This document shows positions 19,035-24,246 of a stretch of 64,000 bases of DNA, in pieces (the stretch's first letter is position 1; each line of letters begins with the position of its first letter). The position numbers and the translations under genes are program-made. This DNA is from Phycisphaerales bacterium (GTDB lineage Bacteria > Planctomycetota > UBA1135 > UBA2386), in assembly GCA_020247305.1 (NCBI GenBank), contig JADCJE010000097.1, positions 1 through 64,000 of the forward strand. The letters run 5' to 3'. The notes under the pieces are model-generated. The model was given only the letters and a program-made list of their open reading frames with translations, had not been told where the DNA came from and did not search any database.

Positions 19035-19110
19035 TGGAGCCGATGGTGGGACTCGAACCCGCGACCTATGCTTTACGAAAGCATTGCTCTACCAACTGAG
19101 CTACATCGGC
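19035..19110 (-). tRNA. tRNA-Thr (anticodon CGT)
   Basis: A 76-base cloverleaf read by eye. The acceptor stem GCCGATG pairs with CATCGGC, followed by T and an encoded CCA. The D-arm is in GTAGCTCAGTTGGTAGAGC. The anticodon stem ATGCT/AGCAT encloses the loop TTCGTAA with anticodon CGT, reading the ACG codon of threonine. The T-arm contains GGGTTCGAGTCCC. A perfect hairpin follows and a plausible promoter precedes it, so it appears to be transcribed alone. Confidence 0.96.
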
Positions 19111-19126
19111 ACAGAACGGGGCGAAC

Positions 19127-19351: not shown

Positions 19352-21475
19352 TCAGCCTTCCGACTTCGGCGCCGTCGCGACGCGGGTGAACTTCTGCAGC
19401 AGTTCGAGCGTCGCTTCGGGCGCGAGCTTGGCCTTGCCGAGGGCCGCGCCGAGGTCGATGCGCAGACCAGCGTCGGTGGCGCCTTCGAGCGCCGTGCGCA
19501 GGGCCGCGACCGCATCGCCGCCGTTGGCGCCGCGACCGAGGATGTTGCCGATCGCCGTCGCCGCCGCGCGCTTGAGGTCGACACTGCCGCCGCCGGCGAG
19601 CGCGGCCGAAAGGGCCGGGAGGGCCGCTTCCCCACCGGCGAGGCCGATGGCCTTCGCCGCCGGGACCGACACCGCGTCCGCGCGGTCGAGCTGACCGGCG
19701 AGCGCCGCCAGGGCGCCGCCGATGTCGCTCTTACCGTTGGCCATCGCCGCGAGGCTGCTGCTCGCCATGGCCGCGTAGGCCTCGGCGCGCGCATTCGCCG
19801 GGTCGGCGACGCCTTCGAGGGCCGCCTTGGCGGCGGCTTCGAGCGCTTCGCCGGTCAGCGGCGCCTTGATGTAGGTGTAGCCGTCGCCGAGGCGCGCCTT
19901 GGCCGCCTCCTCGTCCTTGCACAGGATGGCGATCTTGCAGTTCGCCATGCGCGGGTCCTTCTTGACGTTGCCGATCACGTCCTGCGGCAGGCGATCCGGC
20001 AGGATGTCGCTGACGACGAGGAAGTCGATGTTCGGGTTGGTCAGCAGCGCCGCCATGCCGGAGACGGCATCGGCGCTGTGGCTGACGGCGAAGCCGCGCT
20101 TGCCCGCGACCGAGCTGACTGCGGCGTCGGCGTCCGCCGCCGGCGCGACGACGTGCAGCGTGTGCACGGCCTGCTCGGTGATGGCTGCAGCGAGCACCTC
20201 GACGACCGCGCCGCCCGCCGGCACGGCGACGCCGCCGGTCGCCTTGACCAGGGCTTCGGCCGCGGCGTAGCGCACGCGCTTGTCGTTGCTGCCGAGCGAC
20301 TGGACCAGCGCCGACGAAGCGGCGGAGTCGGCGTTCTCGGCGACGCCGAGCGCGCCCACCGCACCCATCGACACCGGCGCCAGCTTGCCGGCGTTGCCGG
20401 CGTCGAGCGCGCCGCGCACGGCGTCGAGACCCGACGCGAGGGCGACGGCCTTCAGGTCGGCGGCCACGGCTTCGAGCGGCTTCATCGCTTCGTCGCCGCC
20501 GGCCACGCCCTGGTCGATGAGGTTGGCCTGGGCGAGGCAGGCTGACGCGAACGTGCTGCGGGCGTCGAGGCTCGACGGCGCGATGCGCAGCGCCGCCGCG
20601 GCGCAGCCCTTGGCCAGCTCGGCCGGGTACAGCAGCGCCGGGACGTCCGCGGCCACGAGCTTGTCGTTCGCCAGCGACCAGACCACGTCGCTCCACGCGC
20701 CGGCCGCGACGTTGCCCTTGAGGTACTCGCGGGCCTGGGCGAGGTAGAGGTCGACGACGGCGCCGTTGGCGCCCTTCTTCTGCAGGAACTTGCGGGCGAT
20801 GGCGCGCACGTTGGCGCGCTCGTCGTTGCCGAGGTGCACCATCGCCGGGATGGCGCGGTCGTCACCGATCAGGTCGAGCGCCGCGGCGGCGTTCTGCACC
20901 ACCTCGTTGCTGCTGCTGCCCAGCGCCGCGATCAGCGGCAGGACCGCGTGCGAGCGGATCTGCGACAGGGCCGAGACGGCGAGGATCTGGCCGTCCTGGT
21001 CGTCCTTGTTGCCGAGCTTCTCGACGAGGGCGGGCACCGCGAACTCGCCGTGCTCCGCGACCAGCGTGTTGATCGCCGATTGACGGGCGCCGTAGTCGCT
21101 GTCCTTGGCGGTCGCCGTGGCGACCAGGCCCGCGATCGCCGCGTCGTCGCGCGAGCGCACCTTCTTCTCGACCTTGGCGCGCTCCATGATCGAGATCGCG
21201 ATCTTCTGGATCTCGCTCGGGTTGCCGTCGGCGTCCTTCTGCGTCATCAGCAGGTACCACTCGTCCTGCGAGATCGAGCGGTACATCGTGAGCGCGTCGG
21301 CGTTCGACGGATCGCCGGCGAGGATCTCGCGCAGCTTCGCGGTCGCTTCCTCCTTCTTGTTCAGGCGGAGCAGCGTGGCGGCCTCCTGCAGCGGCGAATC
21401 CTGCGCCGCAACGGCGCCACCGACGACCGCGGCGATGGCCGCCGCGAGCAGGGACTGGGAGAGGGAGCGAGCCAT
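19352..21475 (-). CDS. Exported HEAT-repeat protein with an embedded degenerate receiver domain
   Basis: Predicted exported protein of 707 residues. ATG 21475 follows an AAGGAG ribosome site at 9-base spacing and opens a signal peptide ending GGAVAAQDS. Helical TPR-like residues 26-65 are followed by HEAT/PBS-lyase repeats at about 110-245 (for example VRAIARKFL) and again at about 380-430 and 590-700. Between them, residues about 436-553 read like a CheY-type receiver: a strand HTLHVVAP, NIDFLVVSDILP, CKIAILCKD and YIKAPL with Lys537 in the receiver-Lys position. The phosphoacceptor position reads SDILP, one residue short of the usual D-x-x-x-P spacing, so phosphorylation is doubtful. Divergent from the NtrC-type regulator gene. 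Confidence 0.85.
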   Translation of the reverse strand: MARSLSQSLLAAAIAAVVGGAVAAQDSPLQEAATLLRLNKKEEATAKLREILAGDPSNADALTMYRSISQDEWYLLMTQKDADGNPSEIQKIAISIMERAKVEKKVRSRDDAAIAGLVATATAKDSDYGARQSAINTLVAEHGEFAVPALVEKLGNKDDQDGQILAVSALSQIRSHAVLPLIAALGSSSNEVVQNAAAALDLIGDDRAIPAMVHLGNDERANVRAIARKFLQKKGANGAVVDLYLAQAREYLKGNVAAGAWSDVVWSLANDKLVAADVPALLYPAELAKGCAAAALRIAPSSLDARSTFASACLAQANLIDQGVAGGDEAMKPLEAVAADLKAVALASGLDAVRGALDAGNAGKLAPVSMGAVGALGVAENADSAASSALVQSLGSNDKRVRYAAAEALVKATGGVAVPAGGAVVEVLAAAITEQAVHTLHVVAPAADADAAVSSVAGKRGFAVSHSADAVSGMAALLTNPNIDFLVVSDILPDRLPQDVIGNVKKDPRMANCKIAILCKDEEAAKARLGDGYTYIKAPLTGEALEAAAKAALEGVADPANARAEAYAAMASSSLAAMANGKSDIGGALAALAGQLDRADAVSVPAAKAIGLAGGEAALPALSAALAGGGSVDLKRAAATAIGNILGRGANGGDAVAALRTALEGATDAGLRIDLGAALGKAKLAPEATLELLQKFTRVATAPKSEG

Positions 21476-21778
21476 GAAACGGGACTCCTTGAGGGTCGGA
21501 TGCAGTGGGGTCTCTGGGAAGGCCGCGGGCGGTGCAGGGCTTCGTGCACTGGACGCAAAGCACCGCGGCCCTCCGTCCGGTGGAAGCCGGAAAGGGCCGC
21601 CGAATGCTATGTTCCGTCCGTCGAGGGTCAAGCATGCGCCGCGCCGGACAGCGCGGCCCGCCTCCCCCTCACTGCCCCGCCCCAGCTGCGCCGCGCCGCC
21701 CGCCGCCGCCGCCGCCGACCGACCGCGGCCCACCGCCACCGGCCAACCCCGCCCGCCTTGCTCCGTCCCGCCGCCGCT
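21476..21778. other. Divergent intergenic region between the HEAT and NtrC-type genes
   Basis: 303 bases without a supported gene. It holds the HEAT gene ribosome site (AAGGAG complement at 21485-21490), a GC-rich bulged hairpin at 21521-21570 that would lie in the HEAT 5' leader, and a candidate minus-strand promoter. The part nearest the NtrC-type gene is C-rich and shows no recognisable promoter or sigma-54 GG-N10-GC site. Confidence 0.7.
21604..21631 (-). promoter_or_regulatory. Candidate sigma-70 promoter of the HEAT-protein gene
   Basis: On the minus strand TTGACC (21626-21631), 16 bases, then TAGCAT (21604-21609). The -35 matches five of six consensus bases and the -10 four of six. 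It would give a leader of roughly 120 bases containing the hairpin at 21521-21570. Confidence 0.5.
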
Positions 21779-23149
21779 ATGCCGACCCACCCCGCCTTGA
21801 TCCTGCTCGTCGACGACCATCGCGCCGTGCGGGAGGAACTGTGCTTCCAGCTGGGCTACGACGGCTACCAGACGCGCGAAGCGGCCGACGGGCCGACGGC
21901 GGTCGCGATGGCCGCCGACCCGGCGGTGGACCTGATGGTGCTCGACGTCAAGCTCCCGGGACTCGACGGCCTCGACGTGCTGGCGCAGGCCAAGGCGGCG
22001 CGGCCGGACCTGCCGGTGGTGATGATCAGCGGCCACGGCGATCTCGAAACCGCCGTGCTCGCCGTCCGCCGCGGCGCCTACGACTTCCTGCAGAAGCCGT
22101 TCAGCAAGGACCGCCTGGTCCTGTCGCTGCAGAACGCGCTGGCCGCGAGCCGCCTCGCGCGCGAAAACCGCGTCCTGCGCGAAGCGCTCGCCCGCGACCA
22201 CCGCCTGCTTGGCGACAGCGCCGCAATGCAGCAGCTGCGCACGACGATCGCCAAGGTCGCCCCCACCGACGTCGCCGTGCTGATCACCGGCGAGAACGGC
22301 ACCGGCAAGGAGCTGGCGGCGCGGCAACTGCACCTGCAGGGCCGGCGCAACCAAGGCCCGTTCGTGGCGCGCAACTGCGCCGCGATCGCGCCCGAACTGG
22401 TCGAGAGCGAACTCTTCGGCCACGAGCGCGGCGCGTTCACCGGCGCAGTGACGGCGTACGCCGGCGCGTTCGAGCAGGCGCACGGCGGCACGCTGTTCCT
22501 CGACGAGGTCGGCGACATGCCGGCGGCGATGCAGGCCAAGCTGCTGCGCGCGGTGCAGGAGCGGGTCGTGCAGCGCGTCGGCGGCAGCAAGGAGGTCGCC
22601 GTCGACGTGCGCATCGTCGCCGCCACCAACCAGGATCTCGCCGCGATGGTCACCGCCAAGTCCTTCCGCGAGGACCTCTACTACCGGCTGCACGGCGTCG
22701 GCGTGCGCCTGCCGGCGTTGCGCGAACGCCCAGACGACGTGCCGCTGCTGGCCGCGCACTTCCTCGCAAGTGTGCGCGCGCGCTACGGACTGGCGCCGCA
22801 ACGATTCGCCGTCGACGCGATTGCGTGGCTCGCGACCCAGCCCTGGCCCGGCAACGTGCGGCAACTGCGCAACGTCGTCGAGGCGGCGGCGGCGCTGGCG
22901 GACGGCGACGAGGTCGGCGTCGCCGACCTCGCCGGCGCGCTGCCGACGGCGTCGCCGTCGCGCACCGGCGACGGCAGCGTCGACTGGTTCGCCTTCGACC
23001 GCATCGAGGACTTCCGCGCCGCGACCGAGAAGGAGTTCCTGCGCCGCAAGCTGCTGCAGTTCGACGGCAACATCAAGCGCACCGCCGAGCACATCGACCT
23101 GATGCGCAGCAACCTCTACAAGAAGCTGGAGCGCTACGGGCTCAAGTAG
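21779..23149 (+). CDS. NtrC-family sigma-54-dependent response regulator
   Basis: Transcription activator of 456 residues for sigma-54 promoters. The receiver has Asp56 (VLDVKLPG) and Lys106 (LQKPF). The AAA+ domain has Walker A GENGTGKE at 171-178, the sigma-54 contact loop GAFTGA at 218-223, and [10 protein letters not shown] at about 239-248. The C-terminus is a Fis-type helix-turn-helix ([20 protein letters not shown]). The ORF track begins far upstream, but ATG 21779 starts the receiver fold cleanly. There is no adjacent kinase. An intact GAFTGA indicates a true sigma-54 activator. Confidence 0.95.
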
Positions 23150-23225: not shown

Positions 23226-24128
23226 TCACTTCGCCGGCAGGACGATCTTCTGGCCGTCGCGGACGTTGTCGCCGAGGCCCGGGTTGGCCTGCTTGATCGC
23301 GGCGACCATCTTGTCGGCGTTCTTGCGGCCGTACGTCCGCTCGGCGATGCGCCACAGGGAGTCGCCGGGCTTGACCGTGTAGCTCGTGCCGCCGGCCGGC
23401 GGCGTCGCCGAGCTGCTGGCGGGCGCGCCCGTCGCGCCACCGTTGCCGTTGCTGTTGCTGTTGGCCGGCGCGACCGTGCCCGCCGGCGCGAGCGTCGGCA
23501 TGGGCACGTTGGTCACGACGGCAGCGCCCGGCGCGACCGCCGCCGCCGGCGCACCCGCGCTGGGCGCATCGGCCGTGAGGACCTTGGGCTTGCTGGCCTC
23601 GATCGCGAGCAGCAGCACCTCGTCGTCGACCCACGGCACGGCCACTTCCTGGCCGACGCGCAGCACTTCGAGTTCCTCGTTGAGCGACTTGGTCTCGGCG
23701 AGGTAGGGATCGCGCGCGCCGCACCAACGGCGGACGAGGCTGTCGAGCGAGTCGTTGGGCTTCGCACGGACCCAGCGCACGTTGCGCTCGCGGCGCGACA
23801 GTCCGAGTTGCTGCGCGACGAGGTCCGCGGCGACCATCGGCTTCGGGGCCGCGGCGGCCAGCGGCTGCGGCGCCACGTCGGTCGGCGAGGGCACGCCCGG
23901 GAACGCCGCGTCGGCGGCCTTCACACCGCCGTCCGCCGCCGGCGTGGCAGCGGGCTTGCTCGCGTCGGCGTCCTTCGCCGCGACTTCCTGGTTGAGGATG
24001 TGCGCCAGGCCTGGCGTCTGCGCCGCGCGCTTGTCGTCACCGCTCGGGCGGAACAACACCGCGACGACGAGGATCAGGCCGAGGAATCCGGAGACCGCAT
24101 ACACCAACAAACGCTCGTTCTGCTTCAT
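23226..24128 (-). CDS. Membrane-anchored LysM-domain protein
   Basis: Envelope protein of 300 residues that probably binds peptidoglycan. ATG 24128 is preceded by GGAGGG at 4-base spacing. One membrane segment at about residues 8-27 (LLVYAVSGFLGLILVVAVLF) anchors it with no obvious cleavage site. An Ala/Pro-rich linker follows, then a first LysM-like region near 90-150 (AKPNDSLDSLVRRW), a low-complexity Gly/Asn stretch (ANSNSNGNGGATG) and a canonical C-terminal LysM from about 250: YTVKPGDSLWRIAERTYG. It is convergent with the NtrC-type gene. Confidence 0.88.
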   Translation of the reverse strand: MKQNERLLVYAVSGFLGLILVVAVLFRPSGDDKRAAQTPGLAHILNQEVAAKDADASKPAATPAADGGVKAADAAFPGVPSPTDVAPQPLAAAAPKPMVAADLVAQQLGLSRRERNVRWVRAKPNDSLDSLVRRWCGARDPYLAETKSLNEELEVLRVGQEVAVPWVDDEVLLLAIEASKPKVLTADAPSAGAPAAAVAPGAAVVTNVPMPTLAPAGTVAPANSNSNGNGGATGAPASSSATPPAGGTSYTVKPGDSLWRIAERTYGRKNADKMVAAIKQANPGLGDNVRDGQKIVLPAK

Positions 24129-24246
24129 GGCACCCTCCGACGACGCGATGCACCGCGCCGCCGCGCAAGGGGCGGGACGCACGCCATGACGAGAAGCGCG
24201 CGGGACCGCCCGACGCCGTCAGGATGACCGCCCGACGACTGGGCGC

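Follow-up and report, generated by a model that had tools for sequence, protein, structure and literature searches.

Few bacterial signalling domains are as common as the receiver, which is presumed to operate in the cytoplasm, alongside kinases and ATP. The locus described here raises the question of what such a domain may do in a protein that begins with a signal peptide. The window, that is, the whole stretch of DNA that was analysed, comprises positions 1 to 64,000 of the forward strand of the Phycisphaerales bacterium contig JADCJE010000097.1 (GCA_020247305.1). A first-pass annotation had read part of one of its HEAT-repeat proteins as a degenerate CheY-like domain, probably used for protein binding outside the cytoplasm. 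Our analysis leads to a related answer: we regard it as probable that this 707-aa protein is an exported pseudo-receiver embedded in a HEAT/TPR alpha-solenoid, acting as an envelope scaffold or binding protein. The gene starts with the ATG at 21475 and ends with the stop codon at 19352–19354 on the minus strand, and AAGGAG lies 9 nt 5′ of the ATG. Its parts and its divergent neighbor are as follows.

19355–21475, minus strand: gene for the 707-aa HEAT–pseudo-receiver–HEAT protein, predicted to be exported (open reading frame and start; HEAT_2, 7.9e-12; orthologs)
21485–21490, minus strand: ribosome binding site AAGGAG (sequence; conserved in the protein family)
21404–21475, minus strand: predicted signal peptide, residues 1–24, MARSLSQSLLAAAIAAVVGGAVAA followed by Q (n-, h- and c-regions read directly; conserved in orthologs)
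21245–21394, minus strand: N-terminal TPR-like helices, residues 28–77 (AF2 secondary structure; TPR_2 match in ortholog L046)
20180–21214, minus strand: N-terminal HEAT/ARM helical array, residues 88–432 (Pfam HEAT_2, Arm and HEAT; AF2; invariant columns)
19817–20164, minus strand: predicted receiver-fold (pseudo-receiver) domain, residues 438–553 (profile, AF2, hhalign, Foldseek)
19388–19801, minus strand: C-terminal HEAT repeats, residues 559–696 (AF2)
21779–23149, plus strand: divergently encoded response regulator of the NtrC type, whose receiver is intact (PF00072, 8.8e-27; Sigma54_activat, 1.5e-69; synteny)

Pfam found the HEAT repeats (PF13646) in four stretches of the protein, and the order signal peptide, HEAT/TPR, receiver, HEAT is common to the orthologs. 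The N-terminal helical array also holds a short beta hairpin at about residues 264–277 (window 20645–20686), whose W266 is invariant in 52 of the 52 aligned orthologs. A tRNA-like sequence lies just 3′ of the gene (window 19037–19112, minus strand).

The domain had been placed at residues 436–553 of the reading frame that starts at 21475, and these residues do correspond to 20170–19817 of the minus strand; the CheY-like order of its motifs, HVVAP (441), FLVVSDILP (485), AILCKD (516) and YIKAPL (535), was likewise found as described. The single window sequence is only suggestive of a receiver, and weak evidence by itself: Pfam and NCBIfam searches with the window protein alone gave no significant receiver match, the domain is not among the 50 receiver matches detected by Pfam in the window's genome, and phmmer against the PDB gave borderline matches (E 0.27–0.9; FrzS 0.27, CheY 0.4). 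With a profile of the 52 ortholog domains, CheY and further receivers were matched over the entire profile (positions 1–117) at E ~1e-11. PF00072 was matched individually by 30 of the 52 members (best, 5.2e-10), and hhalign aligned the domain with the receiver of the window's NtrC-type regulator over 111 columns (E 9.6e-6).

The AF2 model of the full-length protein (52 sequences, pLDDT 90.4, pTM 0.79) places a receiver at 438–553 between helical arrays, with the elements b1 438–443, a1 446–457, b2 462–467, a2 470–479, b3 485–489, a3 497–506, b4 514–519, a4 522–529, b5 534–537 and a5 542–553. The model of the domain alone has the identical (beta-alpha)5 order (pLDDT 86); the fold by which the first-pass annotation proposed to judge its own reading is thus present in the models. 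In a Foldseek search of the PDB, the domain model retrieved almost only receivers (CheY, RpaA, PhoB, FrzS and Spo0A; TM 0.65–0.83; E about 1e-5 to 1e-4), while the full-length model retrieved solenoids only, which is uninformative for this domain. Several distant orthologs retain the signature VLVIDDxxxTRN at beta1, which speaks for an origin from a genuine receiver. Another Rossmann-like fold that merely resembles a receiver, such as a B12-binding, ATP synthase F subunit or flavodoxin-like fold, could account for the weak ATP-synt_F and OKR_DC_1_N matches of a few members and for the missing Pfam match of the window domain. We consider it exceedingly improbable, because PF00072 is the only family matched by most members, and both the retained signature and the structure matches point to receivers. 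That residues 438–553 form a receiver fold is therefore well supported by the profile comparisons and the predicted structures.

The next question is whether this domain could still be phosphorylated. The active-site positions were assigned by alignment with CheY and with the window's NtrC receiver.

20009–20011, minus strand: Ser489, at the position of the CheY phosphoacceptor D57 (alignment with CheY and the NtrC receiver)
20141–20146, minus strand: Ala444-Pro445, at the position of the CheY metal ligands D12-D13 (alignment)
19919–19921, minus strand: Cys519, at the position of CheY T87 (alignment)
19862–19864, minus strand: Ala538, at the position of CheY K109, with K537 one residue earlier (alignment)
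20024–20026, minus strand: Asp484, a structural Asp at the start of beta3 and not the phosphoacceptor (invariant in 52 of 52 aligned orthologs)

The degeneracy of this active site is well supported. The phosphoacceptor, which had been described as shifted or lost, is lost: N, R, S, A or Q occupies its position in nearly all relatives, and the replacements group by lineage on the tree. None of the 91 scored ortholog receivers has all five catalytic residues (DD, D, T/S, K), and 83 of them keep two or fewer; D484 is the sole invariant column of the domain among the 52 orthologs. In the window protein, A-P, S, C and A stand at the catalytic positions, which sets it apart from functional phospho-receivers; receiver homology combined with the loss of the phosphoacceptor and other key residues is what defines a pseudo-receiver (PsR) or aspartate-less receiver (ALR) domain.

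It could be supposed that the domain is still a phosphorylation switch, working through a shifted Asp490 together with Lys537 or phosphorylated on Ser489. The first-pass annotation had named these residues; Asp490 and Lys537 are indeed present, but the true active-site positions are S489 and A538, each one residue away. D490 and K537 occur together in the window protein and in L010, and D or E is found at 490 in 43 of 91 orthologs. Lys537 itself is not conserved, being replaced by Q, T, V, A and others in relatives, and the metal-binding pair is Ala-Pro; moreover, neither ATP nor a histidine kinase domain would be expected outside the cytoplasm. We thus judge such a switch to be highly improbable. 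D57 is kept in five of the 91 orthologs (L046, L105, L119, L120 and L124), each of which lacks other catalytic residues; with these five, and with a few members that have several catalytic residues, phosphorylation is conceivable in some lineages. L119 and L120, which belong to one family, keep Asp57, Lys109 and one acidic residue, and the signal peptide is still present in them. Judged from their residues, these two would be the best candidates for residual phosphorylation.

The dN/dS of the receiver was below 1 in every close pair tested (for example, dN 0.122 and dS 0.39 with L010) and was comparable to that of the flanking HEAT regions, which indicates that the domain is maintained by purifying selection. 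The solenoid could be the functional part of the protein, with the receiver merely a spacer.

The architecture is not a local oddity. Orthologs, nearly all in single copy, were found in 58 of 61 near relatives and in 144 of the 151 genomes of the class (52 of the 53 good-quality ones). Some match was obtained in 237 of 294 Planctomycetota genomes, the weakest of these probably being HEAT-only. The contig scan, which used exact peptide patterns, retrieves close relatives only; the wider comparison was made within Planctomycetota, where 92 ortholog proteins from ~30 families were read. The pseudo-receiver architecture, with its predicted export, is thus phylum-wide.

Export is predicted from the N-termini, which were judged by a heuristic test (positively charged n-region, hydrophobic core, signal peptidase site) and not by SignalP. 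In the window protein the h-region is short and AVAA followed by Q forms a typical signal peptidase I site; 86 of the 92 orthologs passed the test, the remaining six being near misses. Some N-termini are long, A-x-A is present in 63 of the 92, and four relatives have lipobox-like motifs, which would imply an anchored protein. These features are what would be expected if the protein had an uncleaved signal anchor or, in some lineages, were a lipoprotein, so that the module would be located at the periplasmic face of the membrane instead of being free. The signal peptidase I-type N-terminus of the window protein makes this unlikely, and the receiver ends up outside the cytoplasm under either topology.

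The choice of ortholog starts was biased to hydrophobic starts, and two controls were therefore made. One concerns upstream stops: 10 orthologs have an in-frame stop 5–27 codons before the start, and no codon between the two could serve as another start; in 4 further orthologs the stop lies 48–95 codons upstream, also with no alternative start between. The other is a test in which any Met could serve as the start: it was passed by 0 of 20 NtrC, 1 of 19 AnmK and 3 of 9 PyrG proteins, and by 33 of 41 members of the 707-aa protein family. The signal peptide claimed in the first-pass annotation is thus conserved in orthologs, and the misannotation considered there found no support in the 14 orthologs without an alternative upstream start.

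The gene neighborhoods bear both on the location of the protein and on its possible role. The divergent arrangement with the NtrC-type regulator, already noticed in the first-pass annotation, recurs at the majority of the loci sampled from the same order, and a LysM protein often lies beyond the NtrC gene in these loci.

23226–24182, minus strand: LysM-domain protein, a recurrent neighbor beyond the NtrC gene (Pfam LysM, 6e-8; synteny)
21604–21631, minus strand: conserved candidate for a sigma70-like promoter, TTGACC-N16-TAGCAT, lying 156 nt upstream of the ATG (upstream alignment of 20 same-family members)

In the divergent intergenic region (21476–21778), a block (CTTGACGG...GGAACATAGCATTCG...CCCTTTCC...AGACCCC) is conserved in 20 same-family members, and a 150-nt leader is partly conserved. 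No conserved sigma-54 (−24/−12) site was found upstream of the gene for the 707-aa protein in 20 relatives.

Outside the window's family, the gene is often linked to genes of peptidoglycan recycling, namely AnmK, NagZ and MurQ. Such linkage was seen in 17 of 41 neighborhoods: in many of the other families, and likewise in the majority of the genomes of the window's order that carry AnmK, the gene follows AnmK or AnmK-NagZ on the same strand, and MurQ-AnmK-NagZ sometimes precedes it, again on the same strand, the identities of the neighbors having been checked. The adjoining loci include L079, L125, L132, L138, L131, L130, L071, L077, L081 and L126; in L131, a sodium/solute symporter-like ORF lies between NagZ and the ortholog. 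When the listed positions were compared by eye, 33 genomes from 12 families had AnmK on the same strand and no more than ~5 kb upstream; a rough estimate puts the chance of such proximity, for a single gene in a genome of 5 Mb, on the order of 0.1%. The intergenic gaps to AnmK or NagZ are mostly 110–350 nt, which, together with the gene's own promoter candidate, counts against assuming co-transcription. Most sampled genomes of the order have AnmK, but none was detected in the window's genome (G000) or in G006 and G008 of the same family; the link to peptidoglycan is therefore indirect there and rests on the other families.

A rival reading is that the N-terminus is misannotated and the protein cytoplasmic, its receiver being an ordinary pseudo-receiver that cooperates with the NtrC system next door. 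The conserved divergent gene would fit this, receivers are normally cytoplasmic, and so are AnmK, NagZ and MurQ in model bacteria. Nevertheless, the ATG, the ribosome binding site and the signal peptide are conserved across the phylum, alternative upstream starts are missing in the above 14 orthologs, and the cytoplasmic controls mostly fail the signal-peptide test. We consider the cytoplasmic location quite improbable.

The reading that we prefer, an exported pseudo-receiver within a solenoid, can be formulated as follows. A cleavable Sec-type signal peptide would direct the protein out of the cytoplasm, where it would fold as a long HEAT/TPR alpha-solenoid with the CheY-like receiver seated between two HEAT stretches. 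The receiver would keep its fold, and no aspartyl phosphotransfer is expected from it, since it has lost the phosphoacceptor, the acidic metal-binding pair, the Thr/Ser and the Lys alike, and none of the relatives sampled has the full set of five. Most likely, it would serve an envelope scaffold as a rigid module, either structural or protein-binding, its state being set by partner binding or solenoid geometry rather than by phosphorylation. We thus infer, as did the first-pass annotation, a protein-binding module outside the cytoplasm. The gene neighborhoods suggest that the scaffold may serve peptidoglycan turnover, a role in the cell wall being possible. The receiver was presumably recruited from a cytoplasmic response regulator and lost phosphotransfer after export. 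A fuller scenario is offered only tentatively: the receiver may have been exported early in Planctomycetota, lost phosphotransfer, and come to form the core of a periplasmic scaffold that is conserved and takes part in the turnover or sensing of peptidoglycan.

If this reading is correct, a signalling fold has acquired a new use outside the cytoplasm and been retained throughout a phylum, and an exported receiver without catalytic residues shows the fold in use as a plain interaction module. It would also provide pseudo-receiver research with a naturally occurring example where phosphorylation is most improbable. The family of the 707-aa protein also becomes a conserved candidate in studies of the planctomycete cell wall, which is poorly understood.

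Several known systems can be compared with this protein. HEAT proteins of the CpcE/NblB type (PF13646) share the HEAT repeats, which in the 707-aa protein stand on both sides of the receiver; this group comprises phycobilin lyases and related proteins of the cytoplasm, which are not known to carry either a receiver or a signal peptide. The NtrC-type regulator next door (21779–23149) has a homologous receiver, but with an intact DDDSK active site and in a cytoplasmic transcription factor. FrzS of Myxococcus xanthus is a cytoplasmic motility protein with an N-terminal receiver that is also degenerate, and it is not known to have a HEAT array or a signal peptide; its receiver (PDB 2gkg, 2i6f) is among the best single-sequence and structure matches. 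No paper on a periplasmic or exported receiver was found among the open-licence PMC papers, which is weak evidence of novelty. Pseudo-receivers as a kind are already known; the predicted location, the host architecture and the phylum-wide fixation are unreported in the open-licence PMC literature searched. ALR and PsR domains have the receiver fold without the active-site residues and are thought to work independently of aspartyl phosphorylation, in many cases via protein–protein interaction (PMC4395418, PMC12632262); the 2025 pseudo-receiver review in this literature mentions neither 'periplasm' nor 'cytoplasm'. The domain of the 707-aa protein resembles them in its receiver homology, its fold and the loss of the active-site residues. 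It differs in that Pfam misses it in the window protein, and in its setting: the described PsRs are treated as belonging to response regulators and kinases, while here the domain lies in a HEAT solenoid that is predicted to be exported.
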